Origin: Streptomyces sp. NBC_00091
Lineage (GTDB): Bacteria; Actinomycetota; Actinomycetes; Streptomycetales; Streptomycetaceae
Direction of reading: 5' to 3'
Length of the DNA stretch: 64,000 nucleotides
NCBI RefSeq assembly: GCF_026343185.1
Contig: NZ_JAPEMA010000001.1
Coordinates: 1,798,001-1,862,000 of the forward strand
In this document: positions 2,615 to 9,688 of the stretch, one piece after another
Layout of the letters: each line of letters begins with the position of its first letter
How positions within the stretch are numbered: the stretch's first letter is position 1
Position numbers and translations under genes: made by a program
The notes under the pieces: generated by a model
What the model was told of the DNA's origin: nothing
Databases searched by the model: none
Seen by the model: the letters and a program-made list of their open reading frames with translations, nothing else

Positions 2615-3400
2615 TTAACGGTTCATGATGTTGACGCCACCGTCCGAGACGGTCTGCCACAGCGGCTGGTAGCTCACCCAGGCGGCGAGATCTCCGCCGA
2701 ACCGCTCGCGCGTGGCCACGGCCGCGCGGTGGTCGACGGGCACCGGTTTCCCGGCCGCCCGCGCGATCAGCTGCACCTGCGCCGCCCGCTCCGCCGCGAT
2801 GAACCACCAGGCCGCCGCGTCCACCGAGCCGCCGACCGTCAGCAGCCCCTGGTTGCGCAGGATCAGCGCCTTGTACGGGCCGAGCGCGCGGCCGATCCGT
2901 ACGGGGTCGGCGGCTCCGTCCGCCGGGTACTCGTCGAGCAGCGCGTGGTCCTCGTAGAAGGCGCAGGCCTCCTGGGTGACGGGCGCCAGCAGCTCGCCGA
3001 GGCAGGCCAGGGCCCTGCCGTACGGGCCCTGCGTGCGGACCACCGCCACCACCTCGGGCCGGGCCCGGTGCACGGCCGCGTGCACGGCGAAGGCCAGCTG
3101 GTTGACCCGCCGCCCGCCCCGGACCACCCGCCCCTCCCCGTCGACCAGCAGCAGGTCCTCGGGGCCCAGGCCCGCGAAGGCCCGGCCGAAGGGGTTCACC
3201 CAGTAGCAGTCCTCGAACTCCGGGTCCCGCGCGGTGACGTGCCCCGAGACCCCGTCCTCGTACCCGAGCCGCCCCAGCAGCCGCAGTGCCCCGGCGAGCC
3301 GCTCCTTGCGGTACGCGCGCTCCTCGGCCGGGCCGGTGTGCGCGGGCGGCATCTCGAAGGCCAGCCGGTCCACCGGCACGGGTACGGGCTGATCCGGCAT
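2615..3400 (-). CDS. class II aldolase/adducin family protein lacking the metal ligands
   Basis: The 261-residue protein matches the adducin-like branch of class II aldolases throughout (GHVTARDPEF, WVNPFG, VHAAVHRARPEVVAVV). Active members bind zinc through an H-x-H pair and a later NHG histidine. Here these positions read RTQ (residues 122-124) and NQG (Gln184), so all three ligands are gone. The protein therefore probably has no aldolase chemistry and may bind a sugar or a partner. The ATG at 3400 is chosen because GGAGGGG lies six bases upstream; an in-frame start 27 bp earlier is less likely. Downstream it is followed by the membrane protein gene on the same strand. Confidence 0.8.
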   Translation of the reverse strand: MPDQPVPVPVDRLAFEMPPAHTGPAEERAYRKERLAGALRLLGRLGYEDGVSGHVTARDPEFEDCYWVNPFGRAFAGLGPEDLLLVDGEGRVVRGGRRVNQLAFAVHAAVHRARPEVVAVVRTQGPYGRALACLGELLAPVTQEACAFYEDHALLDEYPADGAADPVRIGRALGPYKALILRNQGLLTVGGSVDAAAWWFIAAERAAQVQLIARAAGKPVPVDHRAAVATRERFGGDLAAWVSYQPLWQTVSDGGVNIMNR

Positions 3401-3476
3401 GCGCCCCTCCTTCGGGTCGCGGCGCAAGGTACCGGCATGGCCGTGAAGTGGCCATAGGGAAGGGGCCGGGGGAAGG

Positions 3477-3513
3477 CGAAAGCCGCCACTCCCGGAAGGG
3501 GGCGGCGGCTTCG
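3477..3513 (-). terminator. hairpin downstream of guaA
   Basis: A stem of about 10 bp (GCCGCC core with flanking GAA/TTC, one bulged A) closes on a loop of about 16 bases, starting 18 bp after the guaA stop codon. It is well placed to separate guaA from the aldolase-like gene. It lacks a long T tract, as is usual in high-GC genomes. Confidence 0.55.
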
Positions 3514-3530
3514 TCAGGCCGTGCGGGGTG

Positions 3531-5123
3531 TCACTCCCACTCGATGGTGCCCGGGGGCTTGCTCGTGCAGTCCAGGACCACGCGGTTCACGTCCGGCACC
3601 TCGTTGGTGATCCGGGTGGAGATCCGCGCGAGCACCTCGTACGGCATGCGCGTCCAGTCCGCGGTCATCGCGTCCTCGGAGGAGACGGGGCGCAGCACGA
3701 TCGGGTGGCCGTAGGTGCGGCCGTCGCCCTGCACGCCCACGCTGCGGACGTCCGCGAGCAGGACGACCGGGCACTGCCAGATCTCCCGGTCCAGGCCGGC
3801 GGCGGTCAGCTCGTGGCGGGCGATGGCGTCGGCCTCGCGCAGCAGGTCCAGGCGCTCCTTGGTGACCTCGCCGACGATGCGGATGCCCAGGCCCGGGCCC
3901 GGGAAGGGCTGGCGCTGGACGATCTCGTCCGGCAGGCCGAGCTCCTGGCCGACCATCCGGACCTCGTCCTTGAACAGCTGGCGCAGCGGCTCGACGAGCT
4001 CGAACTCGATGTCGTCGGGCAGGCCGCCCACGTTGTGGTGGGACTTGATGTTGGCGGTGCCGGTGCCGCCGCCGGACTCGACCACGTCCGGGTACAGGGT
4101 GCCCTGGACGAGGAAGGCGACCGCGGGGCCGTCCTCCTGGAGGATCTCCAGCTGGGCCTGCTCGAAGACGCGGATGAACTCGCGGCCGATGATCTTGCGC
4201 TTGGTCTCCGGGTCGGAGACGCCGGCCAGCGCGGTCAGGAAGCGCTCCTGGGCGTCGACGACCTTCAGCTGGACGCCGGTGGCCGCGACGAAGTCCTTCT
4301 CGACCTGCTCGGTCTCGCCCTTGCGCATCAGGCCGTGGTCGACGTAGACGCAGGTCAGCTGCGAGCCGATGGCCTTCTGCACGAGTGCCGCGGCGACCGC
4401 GGAGTCCACGCCGCCGGACAGGCCGCAGATGGCGCGCTTGTCGCCGACCTGCTCGCGGATGGCCGCGATCTGCTCCTCGACGATGTTGCCGGTGGTCCAG
4501 GTGGGCTTCAGGCCCGCGCCCCGGTAGAGGAAGTGCTCCAGCACCTGCTGGCCGTGCGTGGAGTGCATCACCTCGGGGTGGTACTGCACGCCGTACAGGT
4601 TCTTCTCGTCGTTCTCGAAGGCCGCGACCGGGACGACGTTCGTCGACGCGGTGACGGTGAAGCCCTCGGGGGCGGCGGAGCAGGCGTCGCCGTGGGACAT
4701 CCACACCGACTGGTGCTCCGGGGTGCCCTCGAAGAGGGTGGAGCCGGGCTTGGAGACGGCCAGCTGGGTACGGCCGTACTCGCGCGCGCCGGTGTTGTCG
4801 ACGGTGCCGCCGAGGGTGGTCGCCATCAGCTGGAAGCCGTAGCACATGCCGAATACGGGGACACCCGACTGGAAGAGGCCCAGGGCGTCGTCCAGGCGCG
4901 GGGCACCCTCCTCGTACACGGAGGACGGACCGCCGGAGAGGATGATCGCCTTGGGGTTCTTGGCGAGCATCTCGGCCACGGGCATCGTGCTGGGCACGAT
5001 CTCGCTGTAGACGCGGGCCTCACGGACGCGACGGGCGATGAGCTGGGCGTACTGGGCGCCGAAGTCGACGACGAGAACCGTGTCCGGGGCGCTGTCGTGG
5101 GCGGCGGAGGGTGCTTCTGGCAC
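3531..5123 (-). CDS. guaA: GMP synthase (glutamine-hydrolysing)
   Basis: The enzyme makes GMP from XMP, using glutamine nitrogen and ATP, as the last step of guanine nucleotide synthesis. It has an N-terminal class I amidotransferase domain (nucleophile region FGMCYGFQ; later VQYHPEV). This is followed by the ATP pyrophosphatase loop SGGVDSAV and the C-terminal dimerisation domain ending [12 protein letters not shown]. The length of 530 aa is normal. The start is a GTG with GGAAGG upstream. The other guanine-branch genes, guaB and guaB3, lie about 20 kb away. The upstream region is shared with the divergent chorismate mutase leader. Confidence 0.97.
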
Positions 5124-5211
5124 GGGGCAGGCCTTCCGGCGGAAGAGGTGGCTGTTTTGTCGATTCTAACGGGGGACGCCACTCCCCCTTCGTCTCACCA
5201 TCCGAACCCGC

Positions 5212-5248
5212 TTGGCCCGGAGCGGGACGGAAGGTAATAATCCCTTTC
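5212..5248 (+). promoter_or_regulatory. candidate promoter of the chorismate mutase leader transcript
   Basis: TTGGCC (5212-5217) and TAATAA (5235-5240) are separated by 17 bp and resemble a housekeeping sigma promoter. Transcription would then start about 5247-5249, at or next to the ATG of the leader ORF, giving a leaderless message. This is an inference from spacing only. If the transcript starts further upstream, GGAAGG at 5229-5234 could be a ribosome-binding site with a long spacer. Confidence 0.45.
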
Positions 5249-5317
5249 ATGCGCAAGCAGCTGAGCTTCCTCTTTACCTATGGCACCGGCCGGTCCGGTC
5301 GCCATGGGTCATCGTGA
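5249..5317 (+). CDS. putative aromatic-codon leader peptide, 22 aa
   Basis: A 22-codon ORF begins MRKQLSFLFTYG and stops at TGA 5315-5317, which is 23 bp before a strong hairpin and 103 bp before the chorismate mutase start. It contains Phe-Leu-Phe-Thr-Tyr, that is, three codons for the products of the chorismate mutase branch within five codons. This matches the logic of pheA-type leader peptides, in which scarce charged tRNA stalls the ribosome. It is too short to be called confidently as a protein gene, and its role would be regulatory. Confidence 0.5.
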   Translation: MRKQLSFLFTYGTGRSGRHGSS

Positions 5318-5340
5318 TGCTCGCTTGAGCCACTGACTTC

Positions 5341-5378
5341 CCAGAGCGCCCCGGTCCGACAGGACCGGGGCGCTCTGG
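5341..5378 (+). terminator. perfect 17-bp hairpin, candidate attenuator of the chorismate mutase gene
   Basis: Bases 5341-5357 pair perfectly with 5362-5378 around the loop GACA, followed by CGTTT. The 3' arm contains GGACCGG (5362-5368). This could instead pair with CCGGTCC (5290-5296) inside the leader ORF, so mutually exclusive terminator and antiterminator structures can be drawn. The hairpin lies between leader peptide and structural gene, as expected for transcription attenuation. Confidence 0.6.
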
Positions 5379-5420
5379 CGTTTCCGCTCCTGCCGGCCAC
5401 CAACCCACAGGAGAGACGTC

Positions 5421-5684
5421 ATGACCACGATCACCACCACCCCCGAGCAGCTGATCGCCGGCTCCCGCGAGCGCATCGACTCCCTCGACGACCGGATCAT
5501 CGGGCTGATCCAGGAGCGGATGGCCGTCTCGGCCGTCATCCAGGAGGCCCGGATCGGGGCGGGCGGGCGGCGGGTGCACCTCTCGCGCGAGATGGAGGTG
5601 CTCTCGCACTGGAGCGATGCCCTCGGCAAGCCCGGCACCGCGCTCGCGATGACCCTGCTGGAGCTGTGCCGGGGCCGCGTCTGA
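5421..5684 (+). CDS. chorismate mutase (AroQ class)
   Basis: The 87-residue protein is a monofunctional AroQ-type chorismate mutase, which converts chorismate to prephenate on the way to phenylalanine and tyrosine. The family pattern is clear: a helical protein with RERIDSLDDRIIGLIQERMAVSAVIQEAR near the N-terminus (arginine and lysine-type active-site positions in the first helix) and a short second half, as in actinobacterial intracellular chorismate mutases. The ATG follows GGAGAG with good spacing. No prephenate dehydratase is fused or adjacent. Expression is probably controlled by the leader and hairpin upstream. Confidence 0.9.
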   Translation: MTTITTTPEQLIAGSRERIDSLDDRIIGLIQERMAVSAVIQEARIGAGGRRVHLSREMEVLSHWSDALGKPGTALAMTLLELCRGRV

Positions 5685-5990
5685 GCGGCGCGGGCGCCTG
5701 TTCGTCACCCGTCCGGGCCGTGACCGGCCCCGGGGGCCTTCGTTGGTGAGGTTGTCCGTGCCAGCCAGGCGCGCGACGCAGCACCACGCGTGGCTCCACG
5801 GGAGCGATGAGACGTGCCGCCCGACGGCGCGCGTCGTGGGACCTCGCTCCCTTCGTGTGACCGGACGGCAGGGGACAGCAGCCCGGTCACCCATGAGAAC
5901 GGCCGGCCCGGGGGACGCCCCGGGCCGGCCGTTCGTCTGTGCGCCGTCGTGTTCCGTGCGCCGTCGTCTTATGCGCGCCGTCGTGTGCCG
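5685..5990. other. intergenic region without a supported gene
   Basis: This 306-bp gap separates the chorismate mutase gene from the convergent LAxTG protein gene. No reading frame here has a convincing start and coding bias. Its only clear structure is the terminator hairpin at its right end. Confidence 0.6.
5898..5933. terminator. bidirectional terminator, 16-bp perfect stem
   Basis: AACGGCCGGCCCGGGG (5898-5913) pairs exactly with 5918-5933 around a four-base loop. It lies between the converging chorismate mutase and LAxTG genes and can serve both directions. The flanking AAC/GTT continues into short A/T stretches. Confidence 0.7.
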
Positions 5991-7673
5991 TTACGCGTGC
6001 GCGGAGCCGCCGCGGCGTCGGAAGCCCAGGTAGAGCGCCGCGCCGACGGCCAGCAGCCCGGCTCCGGCGAGGCCGACCAGGCCCGCCGTGCTGCCGGTGG
6101 AGGCCAGCGGGCCGCCGCTGCGGCCGGCGGCCGGGGAGGCGCCGGAGCCCGTGGTGGCTCCCGGGGTGGCCGAGGCGCTCGCGGAGGCGCTCGCCGAGGC
6201 GCTCGGCGAGGGGGTGCCGGTGGAGGGGCGCGGCGACGGGGTGGTGGTGCCCGTCGCGTTCACCGTGAAGGCGGCGATGTTGTTGGTCAGCACCGGGTCG
6301 AAGGCGTGCCGCTGGGGCTCGCCCTGCGGGCCGGGCTTGCCGACGGTGATGGCGCCCCTGGCGTCCTTGACCGTCTTCTCGATCCGCAGCTCGAAGGGGA
6401 ACTCGGCCTTCTCGGATTCCAGCACGGACGTGCCGGTGGCGCAGCGGTAGTGCGCGCTCCGCACCTGGCGGCAGACCGCGGGGGCCGTGAGGACCTTCAC
6501 GCCCTGCGGGAGCACCACGTCGACCACGGCCGCGGGGGCGGTGGAGCGGTGGTCGGCGACCCAGGCCGGGCCGTGGTTGCGTACGGTGACGGCCGTCTTG
6601 ACCGTGGTGCCGGCGGTGCCCTTGAGGTTCAGGGGCTCGGCCGCGAAGTCGGCGGTGTTCGGCACGGCGAGGTCGAACACGCGCTTGTTGTCGGCCGGGT
6701 TCAGGTCGGCGCCGCGCAGGGGGGCGGCGGGCTCCGGGGCCCGCTTGCGTGCGGTCAGCTTCCGGCCGGTGGTGGTACCGGTGGCCGTGCCGGGCGTCTT
6801 GGCGTCCGTGCCCGTGGCCTGCTGGTGCGGGGCCGCCGGGTAGATGCCGTAGCCGAACAGCTCGGTGCGGGCGTGCGCGGTGGCCTTCAGGTGCAGCGGG
6901 CTGTCGCCGGCCAGCTCGTAGCTCGCCTTGGCCTCGAAGTCCCCGTCGACGGTGCAGACGGCGGTGGTGGAGGTGCGGGTGGTGCGGTAGGAGCAGTTGT
7001 CGTAGCGCTCCGGGAGCTCCATGCCGTGGGTGGCCTCCAGTTCCAGGACCACTCCCTTCGCCGGCTGGGTGCCCTCGTTGCTGAACGCGAGGGGCAGGGG
7101 CTGGCTCTCGCCCGGCTTCGGGTCCTTCTTGAGCCGCATCTCCCGCATCACCAGGTCGGGGCCGCCGACCGTGAGGGTGGTGGCGGCGGGGGTGACGGTG
7201 GCTCCGGTGGCCGTGCCGGTCACCGTGAGCACGCCGGAGGCGCCGTTCGCGCTGCCCTTCACGGCGGTGGCCTCCAGGTCCACGCCGGGGCGCGGGCCCT
7301 TGTCCTTGCAGACGAGCGTGGTGCCGCTGACCTGGCACTTCTTCACAGCCGCGGCGGGGTTCTCCCGTACGTCCGCGAACGCCGCGACCTTCGCAAGGTC
7401 GACGGTGAAGGTGAACTCGCCGCCGAAGGTGCCGACGTCGTCCAGGCGGAAGGGCAGCGCCACGGGCTGCGGGGAGGCGGTCCCTCCCGGGTGGAGCGGG
7501 AGGGCGAGGGCGGCCGGGGCGGCCAGGCGGAAGACGGGGGCGGCGGACTCGGCGGGTCCGGCGGGTCCGGCGGGTCCGGCCGGTCCGGCGGGCTCGGCGG
7601 CCATCGCGGAAGGGGCGGCCAGCCCCACGGCCACCAGGCCGCACGCGGCCAGCAGGGAGATGCGCTGTCTCAT
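5991..7673 (-). CDS. cell-wall-anchored LAxTG protein with DUF11/CARDB-like repeats
   Basis: The 560-residue protein begins with a signal peptide (MRQRISLLAACGLVAVGLAA, cleaved near AMA-AE). It ends with the sorting signal LASTG, a hydrophobic helix and RRRGG. LAxTG is the motif used by class E sortases in Streptomyces, so the protein should be anchored to peptidoglycan. The body contains beta-sandwich repeats of the DUF11/CARDB type (for example PGESQPLPLAFSNEGTQPAK and TVKTAVTVRNHGPAWVAD), suggesting a surface spacer or adhesive role. Low-complexity linkers include repeated AGP near the N-terminus and a Ser-Ala run before LASTG. No sortase gene is nearby. Confidence 0.85.
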   Translation of the reverse strand: MRQRISLLAACGLVAVGLAAPSAMAAEPAGPAGPAGPAGPAESAAPVFRLAAPAALALPLHPGGTASPQPVALPFRLDDVGTFGGEFTFTVDLAKVAAFADVRENPAAAVKKCQVSGTTLVCKDKGPRPGVDLEATAVKGSANGASGVLTVTGTATGATVTPAATTLTVGGPDLVMREMRLKKDPKPGESQPLPLAFSNEGTQPAKGVVLELEATHGMELPERYDNCSYRTTRTSTTAVCTVDGDFEAKASYELAGDSPLHLKATAHARTELFGYGIYPAAPHQQATGTDAKTPGTATGTTTGRKLTARKRAPEPAAPLRGADLNPADNKRVFDLAVPNTADFAAEPLNLKGTAGTTVKTAVTVRNHGPAWVADHRSTAPAAVVDVVLPQGVKVLTAPAVCRQVRSAHYRCATGTSVLESEKAEFPFELRIEKTVKDARGAITVGKPGPQGEPQRHAFDPVLTNNIAAFTVNATGTTTPSPRPSTGTPSPSASASASASASATPGATTGSGASPAAGRSGGPLASTGSTAGLVGLAGAGLLAVGAALYLGFRRRGGSAHA

Positions 7674-7796
7674 GCCCCCCTTGACCCCCGGACCGCCGTC
7701 GCGGTTGCACGGTTCCCCATGTGACCGACACCACAGCTCAGCGCGAAGGATTCCGGTACAACCTTTTTCGGCAACCGCCTGTCCACTCATGTACTG

Positions 7797-7837
7797 CGGT
7801 GAGTACCGCGCTCGGAGGGGGAGCGCGGTGCTCACCG
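7797..7837 (-). terminator. terminator of the aldehyde dehydrogenase/GMC oxidoreductase pair
   Basis: A 17-bp stem (CGGTGAGTACCGCGCTC with GAGCGCGGTGCTCACCG, one G-T pair) begins four bases past the GMC oxidoreductase stop codon on the minus strand. Confidence 0.7.
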
Positions 7838-7840
7838 TCG

Positions 7841-9688
7841 TCAGTGCTCCGGTTCCGGTTGCCTCGGCGGAACTTCGGGAACCGCGAGGAACGGCAGCCG
7901 CAGCGCGCCGAACGCCTCCTTGGGGACGGCCGGGAGGTTCGGCTCCACCGCCTCGAGACGCTCGTACGACCGGCCCTGCGCGGGCCGCCGGTCCGCCTCG
8001 CCCTTGTTCGGCCAGTACGACATCGCCCGCTCGGCCTGTGCCGTGATGGTCAGGGACGGGTTGACCCCGAGGTTGGCGGAGACCGCCGAACCGTCGACCA
8101 CCGAGATGCCCGGGTGTCCGTACAGCCGGTGGTACGGGTCCACCACGCCCTCCTCGGCGGTGGCGCCGATCGGGCAGCCGCCGAGGAAGTGGGCGGTCAG
8201 CGGGGTGCCCATCAGCTCCCCGATGTTGCTGCCGGGGAAGCCGTTGATCTCCTCGGCCAGCAGGGTCGCGGCCCGGGTGGCCTCCTCGATCTGCACCGGA
8301 TTGGGGGCGCCGTGGCCCTGACGGGCGGTCAGCAGGCCCTTGCCGACGCCGCCGGGCCTGCGGTAGGTGGTCAGGGAGTTGTCCAGGGACTGCATGACCA
8401 GCCCGATGATGGTCCGCTCCGACCAGCGCCGGTTCGACAGGGAGCGCAGCAGCTGCACCGGGTGCCTGGCGGTGCGGGCGAACCAGGCCCGTACCCGGTG
8501 CCCGCTGTAGGGCACCTGGAGGACGGTCATGAACCCCATGGCGTTGGAGCCCTTGCCGTAGCGGACGGGCTCGATGTGGGTGTCGGCGTCGGGGTGCACG
8601 GACGAGGTGATGGCCACGCCCCGGGTGAAGTCCGCCCGGGCGCCGCCGCCGTGCCGCTTGCGGTAGCGGCGGTCGTCGGTCTGGGCGCCGACCAGGCCCT
8701 CGGAGTTGGTCCGGGTCAGGTCGCCGAGCCGGTCCGAGATCCGGGGCAGTTCGCCGAGGTCCTTCATGGTGTGCAGCAGGGTCTGGGTGCCGTACGTACC
8801 CGCCGCGACCACCACGTGGCGGGCGCGCAGCACCCTGGCGCGGCCCTTGCGGCGGTGGTCGGTGGGGACGGTGCGGACCCGGTGGCCGCCGTCGGGGTGC
8901 TCGGAGAGCGCGGTGACGGTGGTCATGGGGTGGATGACGGCGCCGGCCCGTTCGGCCAGGTGCAGGTAGTTCTCGTTGAGGGTGTTCTTCGCGCCGTGCC
9001 GGCAGCCCGTCATGCACTCGCCGCACTCGGTGCAGGCCCTGCGGGAGGGCCCGGCGCCGCCGAAGTACGGGTCGGCGACCTCCTGGCCGGGGCGGACCCG
9101 GGGCTGTCCCGCGGCGTCCTGGCCGTCGCCGAAGAAGACGCCGACCGGCGCCATGTGGAATGTGTCGCCGACGCCCATCTTCTCGGCGGCGGCCTTGAGG
9201 TGGACGTCGGAGGGGGTGAGCGTCGGGTTGAGCCGTACGCCGAGCATCCGCTTCGCCTGGTCGTAGTACGGGGCGAGTTCCGCCTGCCAGTCGGTGATGG
9301 AAGCCCACTGCCGGTCCTCGAAGAAGGCGGTGGGCGGCACGTACAGGGTGTTGGCGTAGTTGAGCGAGCCGCCGCCGACCCCGGCGCCGGCGAGCACCAT
9401 CACGTTGCCGAGCAGGTGGATGCGCTGGATGCCGTACAGCCCGAGGGCGGGCGCCCACAGGTAGTTGCGCAGGTCCCAGCTGTTACGGGGCAGGCTCTCG
9501 CGGGTGAAGCGGCGTCCTGCCTCCAGGACGCCGACCCGGTAGCCCTTCTCGGTGAGGCGCAGTGCCGAGACAGACCCCCCGAATCCGGATCCGATGACGA
9601 TGACGTCGTAGTCGTAGTCGTGGTCACGATCGTGCTCGTGGTCACGATCGTGGTCGTGCTCGTGGTCGTGGTCGTGGTCGTTCGGCAC
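7841..9688 (-). CDS. GMC family FAD oxidoreductase (cholesterol-oxidase-like) with His/Asp-rich N-terminus
   Basis: The 615-residue protein is a GMC flavoprotein. The FAD-binding loop DVIVIGSGFGGSVSALRL appears at about residue 28, GAGVGGGSLNYAN further in, and the C-terminal signature includes NLGVNPSLTITAQAERAM. The closest recognisable relatives are bacterial cholesterol oxidases and glucose-methanol-choline enzymes; the substrate is not known. A CxxCxxCxxxC-like cluster (CTECGECMTGCRHG) lies near residue 215. The N-terminus before the Rossmann loop is an alternating His/Asp/Glu/Arg tract, absent from typical members. The GTG at 9688 is preferred because AAGGGG sits six bases upstream. It follows the aldehyde dehydrogenase gene by 9 bp, so the two are probably co-transcribed. 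Confidence 0.85.
   Translation of the reverse strand: MPNDHDHDHEHDHDRDHEHDRDHDYDYDVIVIGSGFGGSVSALRLTEKGYRVGVLEAGRRFTRESLPRNSWDLRNYLWAPALGLYGIQRIHLLGNVMVLAGAGVGGGSLNYANTLYVPPTAFFEDRQWASITDWQAELAPYYDQAKRMLGVRLNPTLTPSDVHLKAAAEKMGVGDTFHMAPVGVFFGDGQDAAGQPRVRPGQEVADPYFGGAGPSRRACTECGECMTGCRHGAKNTLNENYLHLAERAGAVIHPMTTVTALSEHPDGGHRVRTVPTDHRRKGRARVLRARHVVVAAGTYGTQTLLHTMKDLGELPRISDRLGDLTRTNSEGLVGAQTDDRRYRKRHGGGARADFTRGVAITSSVHPDADTHIEPVRYGKGSNAMGFMTVLQVPYSGHRVRAWFARTARHPVQLLRSLSNRRWSERTIIGLVMQSLDNSLTTYRRPGGVGKGLLTARQGHGAPNPVQIEEATRAATLLAEEINGFPGSNIGELMGTPLTAHFLGGCPIGATAEEGVVDPYHRLYGHPGISVVDGSAVSANLGVNPSLTITAQAERAMSYWPNKGEADRRPAQGRSYERLEAVEPNLPAVPKEAFGALRLPFLAVPEVPPRQPEPEH
9606..9681 (-). repeat. hexanucleotide repeat encoding His-Asp repeats
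   Basis: GTGGTC-like six-base units (with GTGCTC and CACGATC variants) are repeated about twelve times at the 5' end of the GMC oxidoreductase gene. In-frame gain or loss of a unit would change the length of the His/Asp tract without a frameshift. Confidence 0.75.

Follow-up and report, generated by a model that had tools for sequence, protein, structure and literature searches.

Organization of the chorismate mutase locus

The window, that is, the whole 64,000-nt stretch of Streptomyces sp. NBC_00091 DNA that was analyzed, carries a chorismate mutase (CM) gene preceded by a short open reading frame and a strong hairpin. The features of the locus, with the kind of evidence for each, are as follows.

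3531..5123, minus strand: guaA (GMP synthase), divergent neighbor outside the element, GTG start at 5123 (ORF and family match)
5212..5241, plus strand: promoter-like pair TTGGCC (5212–5217), 18 nt, AATAAT (5236–5241) (shuffle-tested motif scan)
5249..5317, plus strand: leader ORF, 22 codons and TGA, peptide MRKQLSFLFTYGTGRSGRHGSS
5267..5281, plus strand: putative regulatory codons TTC CTC TTT ACC TAT (Phe-Leu-Phe-Thr-Tyr), with TTT at 5273–5275 and TAT at 5279–5281
5276..5309, plus strand: leader hairpin H1, 5276–5289 with 5295–5309, C5300 bulged (folding, compensatory pairs)
5287..5358, plus strand: predicted antiterminator, 5287–5293 with 5351–5358 (U5355 bulged) and 5297–5298 with 5349–5350 (nascent fold with the ribosome on Phe; covariation)
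Further predicted antiterminator pairs, plus strand: 5300–5302 with 5346–5348 and 5305–5308 with 5340–5343 (nascent fold)
5341..5378, plus strand: terminator-type hairpin H3, 17 bp, loop GACA (sequence, folding, covariation)
5409..5413, plus strand: Shine-Dalgarno AGGAG of chorismate mutase (sequence)
5421..5684, plus strand: chorismate mutase, AroQ-type, 87 aa, the gene under proposed control (NF005894, PF01817)

The identity of CM, which the initial annotation had placed downstream of the hairpin, was confirmed by family matches (NF005894 at 112.9 bits, with 73 as the cut-off, and also PF01817). The 22-codon ORF with Phe-Leu-Phe-Thr-Tyr described there could likewise be located at 5249–5317, where it reads S-F-L-F-T-Y, as could the perfect 17-bp hairpin, the arms of which (5341–5357 and 5362–5378) form 17 perfect pairs at −41.4 kcal/mol. 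Directly 3′ of H3 lies CGTTTCCGCTCC, a weak U-tract. The folding energy of the window RNA from the leader to the CM start was 6.65 sd below that of dinucleotide shuffles. Of 79 further loci, 76 had guaA beside CM, in divergent orientation every time. Scanning positions 3000–8000 of the window with the curated Rfam covariance models revealed nothing relevant above threshold; a sub-threshold match to mir-3960 at 7133–7199 is most likely due to chance in GC-rich sequence.

A single promoter-like pair was found, where shuffled sequences gave a mean of 0.0 (sd 0.2). It corresponds to the −35/−10 pair of the initial annotation, with a spacer of 18 rather than 17 nt. As the pair ends 7 nt before the leader ATG, a leaderless start is plausible. 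In 78 of 80 leaders, a −10-like hexamer was followed after 4–7 nt by an in-frame start codon, ATG or GTG, with CATACT as the hexamer in 51 of the 80, and a leaderless transcript is predicted from this position; transcription would plausibly start at or beside the leader ATG.

Conservation and distribution of the leader

The CM protein was searched against species-level genomes, which returned at least 135 relatives. The best 80 of these were kept, 79 of them titled Streptomyces and one Microtetraspora glauca, and all 80 carried the leader before CM, with the motif TT[TC]ACCTATGG no more than 450 nt upstream of the CM match in 79. The leader of locus L018 lay farther upstream of CM and adjoined a run of N. 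Around positions 1900–2500 this locus displayed an apparent frame change, the N run, and a seeming duplicate of the hairpin-to-gene stretch, oddities that probably reflect an assembly fault. The locus titled Microtetraspora glauca had a leader and CM of Streptomyces type, and is a case of a mislabelled strain or of transfer.

A covariance model, R1, was trained on 46 sequences and gave a full-length match in 119 of 121 sampled genus genomes, a count of model matches irrespective of gene context. In the family sample, which includes genus members, 117 of 150 genomes matched, and by our own count 102 of the 117 were full-length matches of at least 40 bits. All 20 low-scoring family matches that were fetched sit upstream of a CM gene, with 52–70% identity and leaders such as MFSAFGIFTYGTGWSGCHRAAA; they probably come from other genera. 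No R1 match was obtained in 35 genomes (2 genus, 33 family). When 22 of these were searched with CM, 17 gave no CM match, so that failure to match R1 mostly goes together with absence of the gene. The others were G154, with a leader in a form overlooked by R1 and bearing FSHG; G013, in which the CM match runs into a contig edge; L170 and L171, distant CM homologues upstream of which no such leader was found; and L172, a marginal CM match. Judged by sequence, the element appears to be almost universal in the sampled genus Streptomyces. The initial annotation had staked its reading on the aromatic codons and the alternative pairings being conserved in relatives, and it withstood this comparison.

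At the level of the class, R1 matched 87 of 296 sampled genomes, many by a short hairpin only. Twenty of these loci (L128–L147) were fetched, and 16 had a class I DAHP synthase gene preceded by a leaderless-looking ORF with Phe, Trp, and Tyr codons, the DAHP synthase family having been assigned on one of the 16. The leader of L130, VSDRRSYFYYGTGSPAAVGRA, stands before CM, and three of the 20 were chance hairpin matches. Phe/Trp/Tyr-rich leader peptides seen before class I DAHP synthase include MQRNFWRFYGYRP, MRTAWSFWYGDGP, MRTAFWFWYGDGP, and MLGALSFWYGDGP. The DAHP synthase leaders were accompanied by a GC-rich hairpin, near position 1000 of the oriented loci (near 58 in L176). A second covariance model, R2, was built from this leader group; 12 of its further matches were fetched, and 11 were located before DAHP synthase (L173–L183) with 65–92% identity to the L135 piece and leaders exemplified by MRTAFWFWYGDGP and MQQARWFFYCGRP, while the twelfth proved to be nothing. 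No such leader (0/30) could be found at the best loci for class II DAHP synthase, prephenate dehydratase, and prephenate dehydrogenase in ten Streptomyces genomes, using a filter that recovers 79 of the 80 CM loci with one extra F.Y requirement.

Codons of the leader peptide

Codons were tabulated for 80 sequences, namely the window and 79 loci, with L018 left out. The first Phe was kept in 74 and the second in all 80, encoded by TTT in 79, and the Tyr was kept in all 80 and encoded by TAT every time. By comparison, guaA in 76 of the same loci used TTT for 3 of 1216 Phe codons and TAT for 4 of 915 Tyr codons. The preference for TAT can be explained by H1, the pairing of which asks for TAT rather than TAC. 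The key TTT (5273–5275 in the window) sits outside H1, which leaves its fixation without an explanation from that hairpin; slow wobble decoding is our guess at the reason. Phe-Thr-Tyr-Gly was nearly invariant in Streptomyces leaders. By sequence, codons for products of the pathway were thus clustered in a conserved, predicted short ORF.

Natural Phe-only variants occurred in distant members of the family, with FTQG (Tyr to Gln) in L152 and FSHG (Tyr to His) in L168. The loss of Tyr with Phe retained fits Phe as the main signal, and in the leaders compared from beyond Streptomyces, Phe has been retained better than Tyr.

Computed folds of the proposed switch

Nine loci (L022, L027, L030, L033, L078, L158, L162, L167, and L018) were left out of the H3-stem, fold, sequestration, and covariation statistics. 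Eight of them had no automatically detected perfect H3 stem and showed mismatched or bulged hairpins by eye; L018 was outside the set. H1 consisted of the segment around the Tyr codon paired with the GCCAUGG stretch, and its inner pair was mostly A-U, with a few G-U and with U-A, C-G, or G-C in single sequences. H1 reached a z-score below −2 in most CM leaders, namely 66 of the 75 from Streptomyces and 13 of the 18 others, whereas none of the 16 DAHP synthase leaders did so and the hairpin was not significant there.

A ribosome on Phe was modelled by masking the first 13 nt from TTT in an RNA ending at the H3 loop. The resulting nascent fold contained a long antiterminator, formed by the leader and the H3 5′ arm, in all ten representatives. 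Over 75 Streptomyces leaders this fold had a mean energy of −34.4 kcal/mol and a mean z of −2.66 (74 below −1, 56 below −2), and 88% of the H3 5′ arm was sequestered. Elsewhere the mean z was −2.26 for 18 other CM leaders and −2.46 for 16 DAHP synthase leaders, with 15 below −1 in each group.

Sequestration of the arm was then computed with the A-site codon 0, 2, 4, 6, 9, and 13 codons from Phe, giving the following fractions.

61 distinct Streptomyces leaders: 0.86, 0.67, 0.45, 0.33, 0.14, 0.21; shuffled 0.61, 0.59, 0.58, 0.56, 0.54, 0.43
18 other CM leaders: 0.78, 0.69, 0.36, 0.16, 0.21, 0.22; shuffled 0.60 to 0.36
27 DAHP synthase leaders: 0.68, 0.41, 0.20, 0.18, 0.24, 0.23; shuffled 0.54 to 0.35

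In Streptomyces, by computation, the codons lie where a stalled ribosome would release the antiterminator, sequestration being 0.86 with the ribosome at Phe, 0.67 at Tyr, and as low as 0.14 farther on. The switch was weaker in the DAHP synthase group (0.68 at Phe versus 0.54 in shuffled leaders). Footprints of 10 and 16 nt gave a similar fall, with only 0.54 for DAHP synthase leaders at Phe for the 16-nt footprint; the shuffles refer to the 13-nt footprint only. At equilibrium with no ribosome, sequestration was 0.77 for Streptomyces CM, 0.68 for other CM, and 0.66 for DAHP synthase leaders. The antiterminator is therefore favored in the absence of a ribosome, and for untranslated RNA to be silent, H1 would have to form first as the RNA is transcribed.

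H3 had a mean energy of −36.6 kcal/mol and was present in every full-length fold of the ten representatives. The U-tract after it was poor (mean of 4.1 T in 12 nt), and a terminator scan of the window DNA found none, so that intrinsic termination at H3 is not certain.

Covariation of the alternative pairings

When leaders and H3 arms were swapped between species, native combinations were better by 2.58 kcal/mol after removal of row and column effects, with a permutation z of −7.25 over 51 distinct arms that ignores relatedness. Kinship is likewise ignored in the values for the separate groups, which were −3.8 for Streptomyces CM (17 arms), −3.8 for other CM (18), and −4.2 for DAHP synthase (16). 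The positive control, in which H3 arms were swapped against each other, gave a z of −16.5. The best contiguous helices of 120 sequences revealed covarying antiterminators, including CGGCCCG:CGGGCCG, CGGTCCG:CGGACCG, AACCCGG:CCGGGTT, and TGGTCCGG:CCGGATCA, and before DAHP synthase CGGACCCG:CGGGTCCG. The best leader-arm helix had only five pairs in 11 of the 120. The swap z from the helix table was 5.3 on 62 arms, relatedness again being ignored.

RNAalifold detected changes on both sides in 3 of 21 pairs, all within H3. Applied to the whole mafft alignment, it missed the antiterminator in the general clade but showed it in the five-sequence clade of the window. The miss is attributable to the H1 loop, which is out of register between clades, and to the dominance of H3; per-sequence folds were used in place of the whole-alignment approach. 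By folding and covariation, an antiterminator and a terminator-type hairpin that exclude one another were both found to be conserved. The initial annotation had proposed that 5290–5296 (CCGGTCC) pairs with the 3′ arm of the hairpin. The two are indeed complementary in the window, but the pairing conserved in relatives is another one, and in the sequences compared the leader segment of the conserved antiterminator pairs with the 5′ arm of H3 instead of the 3′ arm.

Proposed mechanism and alternative explanations

The element is very probably a classical ribosome-mediated transcription attenuator of CM that uses a leaderless short ORF as its sensor, and the signal would be Phe and probably Tyr. 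When Phe-tRNA, and probably Tyr-tRNA, is charged, a ribosome that entered at or beside the transcript start would pass F-x-F-T-Y, cover the next segment, and halt at UGA. With the ribosome past these codons, the antiterminator would be blocked and the GC-rich H3 could fold, and the transcript would then end before CM. Under a shortage of Phe or Tyr, the ribosome would stall on those codons and mask the H1 5′ arm, and the segment thus freed could pair with the H3 5′ arm as the arm emerges. With its 5′ arm captured, H3 could not form and CM would be transcribed, which would constitute the response to Phe and Tyr.

Stalling in the leader might instead rearrange the RNA so that H3 and a fold over the CM ribosome-binding site set translation or RNA decay. 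We consider this unlikely; the weak U-tract after H3 would suit such control, as would CTCCTG (5387–5392), which is complementary to the Shine-Dalgarno region in the window, yet the conserved, covarying competition concerns H3, and the fold from H3 to the CM start barely exceeded shuffled sequence in stability (mean z of −0.40 for 75 sequences). The Shine-Dalgarno was at least 80% paired in 43 of the 75. A hairpin at the ribosome-binding site, considered as a second switch, was not significant among the 75 sequences. In the window itself, CTCCTG is the exact complement of CAGGAG (5408–5413), the Shine-Dalgarno stretch of CM.

It is far less probable that the leader peptide itself is the effector, either as a nascent-chain arrest peptide or as a small functional protein. 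FTYG and the GCHGRAA tail are strongly conserved as protein in Streptomyces, as such a role would predict, but residues past FTYG vary where the pairing is kept (T, N, I, D, or S at codon +4, and mostly R-P or G-R at +5/+6), distant family members drop the tail while keeping the aromatic core and the RNA folds, and the choice of TAT over TAC is what H1 pairing requires. The least credible explanation is a conserved hairpin that does not switch, with the ORF as a decoy and H3 acting as a constitutive terminator or as a stability element. Such a role would agree with the great stability of H3 and its presence in all full-length folds of the representatives; against it, the leader and the 5′ arm of H3 covary, sequestration falls with ribosome position far more than in shuffled leaders, and the aromatic codons are fixed before a Phe/Tyr gene.

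Relation to the DAHP synthase leaders

Common descent of the CM and DAHP synthase leaders is plausible from their sequences. Using nhmmer with the leader sequence without H3, homology between the two was not significant, the best hit to a DAHP synthase locus having an E of 1.1; the other CM loci scored in that run were mostly in the training set. Reciprocal covariance models gave better agreement: of the 27 genomes with a CM-leader match of at least 60 bits, 21 had that leader as the best R2 match, and in the other 6 the best R2 match lay elsewhere or was absent (own count). H3 alone scores approximately 30 bits, so that reciprocal models do not settle the ancestry. DAHP synthase and chorismate mutase form an allosteric complex in actinobacteria. 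Tentatively, and with somewhat more doubt than confidence, the actinomycetes may possess one ancestral family of leaderless aromatic attenuators that has moved between the two genes. The common core of such a family might be the leader CGG(A)CCC with the H3 arm GGG(U)CCG, and it would perhaps be found on DAHP synthase in many lineages and on CM in Streptomyces and relatives.

Comparison with known systems

The aroR leader of Corynebacterium glutamicum is leaderless, and the aroR/aroF leader system is reportedly that of Neshat et al. 2014. By description, aroR/aroF is the nearest precedent. According to the available part of PMC11802643, transcription of aroF, which encodes DAHP synthase, goes up when Phe is limiting, and Phe matters while Tyr does not. 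The likeness, as far as that part describes it, lies in an actinobacterial Phe-Tyr-Phe leader peptide before a gene of the shikimate pathway, and the Phe-only leaders of L152 and L168 agree with Phe as the main aroR signal (PMC11802643, in part). The difference is that aroR, known here by description only, precedes the DAHP synthase gene aroF, whereas the Streptomyces leader precedes CM. The initial annotation regarded such leaders as established for pheA and trp operons and knew of none for a stand-alone actinobacterial CM; no description was indeed found, but aroR/aroF comes close. That search covered titles and abstract openings in the open-licence literature on attenuation in Streptomyces and Actinobacteria, and the CM leader element was not described there.

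The polycysteine leaderless short ORFs of mycobacteria, said to have been described by Canestrari et al. 2020, resemble the CM leader in having a leaderless sensor ORF and stalling on scarce codons; their output is reportedly translational, via the ribosome-binding site, whereas the output of the CM leader most likely consists in ending the transcript at H3. In Escherichia coli, pheA encodes a fused CM-prephenate dehydratase. The pheL-pheA attenuator of that species (PMC11802643, available part) is similar in that chorismate mutase activity is placed under the control of Phe codons in a leader peptide, and differs in that the enzyme is fused rather than stand-alone and that the CM leader ORF appears leaderless. 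The trpL, leuL, and ilvL leaders of Streptomyces, as presented in the available parts of PMC8079986 and PMC1262725, also combine a short leaderless ORF, end-product codons, and subsequent hairpins, but concern another amino acid and another gene.

Structures for Trp, Cys, Leu/Ilv, and an Ile T-box were reported by Seliverstov et al. 2005, with none conserved in other pathways according to the available part of that paper (PMC1262725). The same part recounts that the results for similar-looking leaders, those of ilvB and leuA in S. coelicolor, did not fit classical attenuation, and these results count against a classical attenuation reading of the CM leader. Chorismate was unmentioned in the available main text of the S. 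clavuligerus 3′-end study (PMC8269248) and in the available parts of PMC4833913 and PMC2965389, as were both chorismate and phenylalanine in that of the Mycobacterium attenuation paper PMC13236596. Of the eight leader peptides in Table 4 of the S. lividans TK24 reannotation (PMC8079986, available part), two are for Trp, whereas Phe/Tyr and chorismate mutase are not represented. S. lividans is expected to carry the CM leader. An RNA-seq leader list such as this one (2021; PMC8079986, available part), which lacks a Phe/Tyr leader, suggests that this route can miss such elements.

Biological significance

The aromatic pathway of Streptomyces feeds many antibiotics, and control of Phe/Tyr synthesis there came without an RNA switch in the open-licence literature searched. 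The CM leader offers a single defined element with a codon-level prediction that is amenable to a reporter. Through a common sensor design, CM of Streptomyces is also linked to the DAHP synthase of other lineages in the class, and the DAHP synthase group points to a wider family of aromatic attenuators. If the ancestral family is real, it would represent one sensor that has moved between two enzymes of one pathway.
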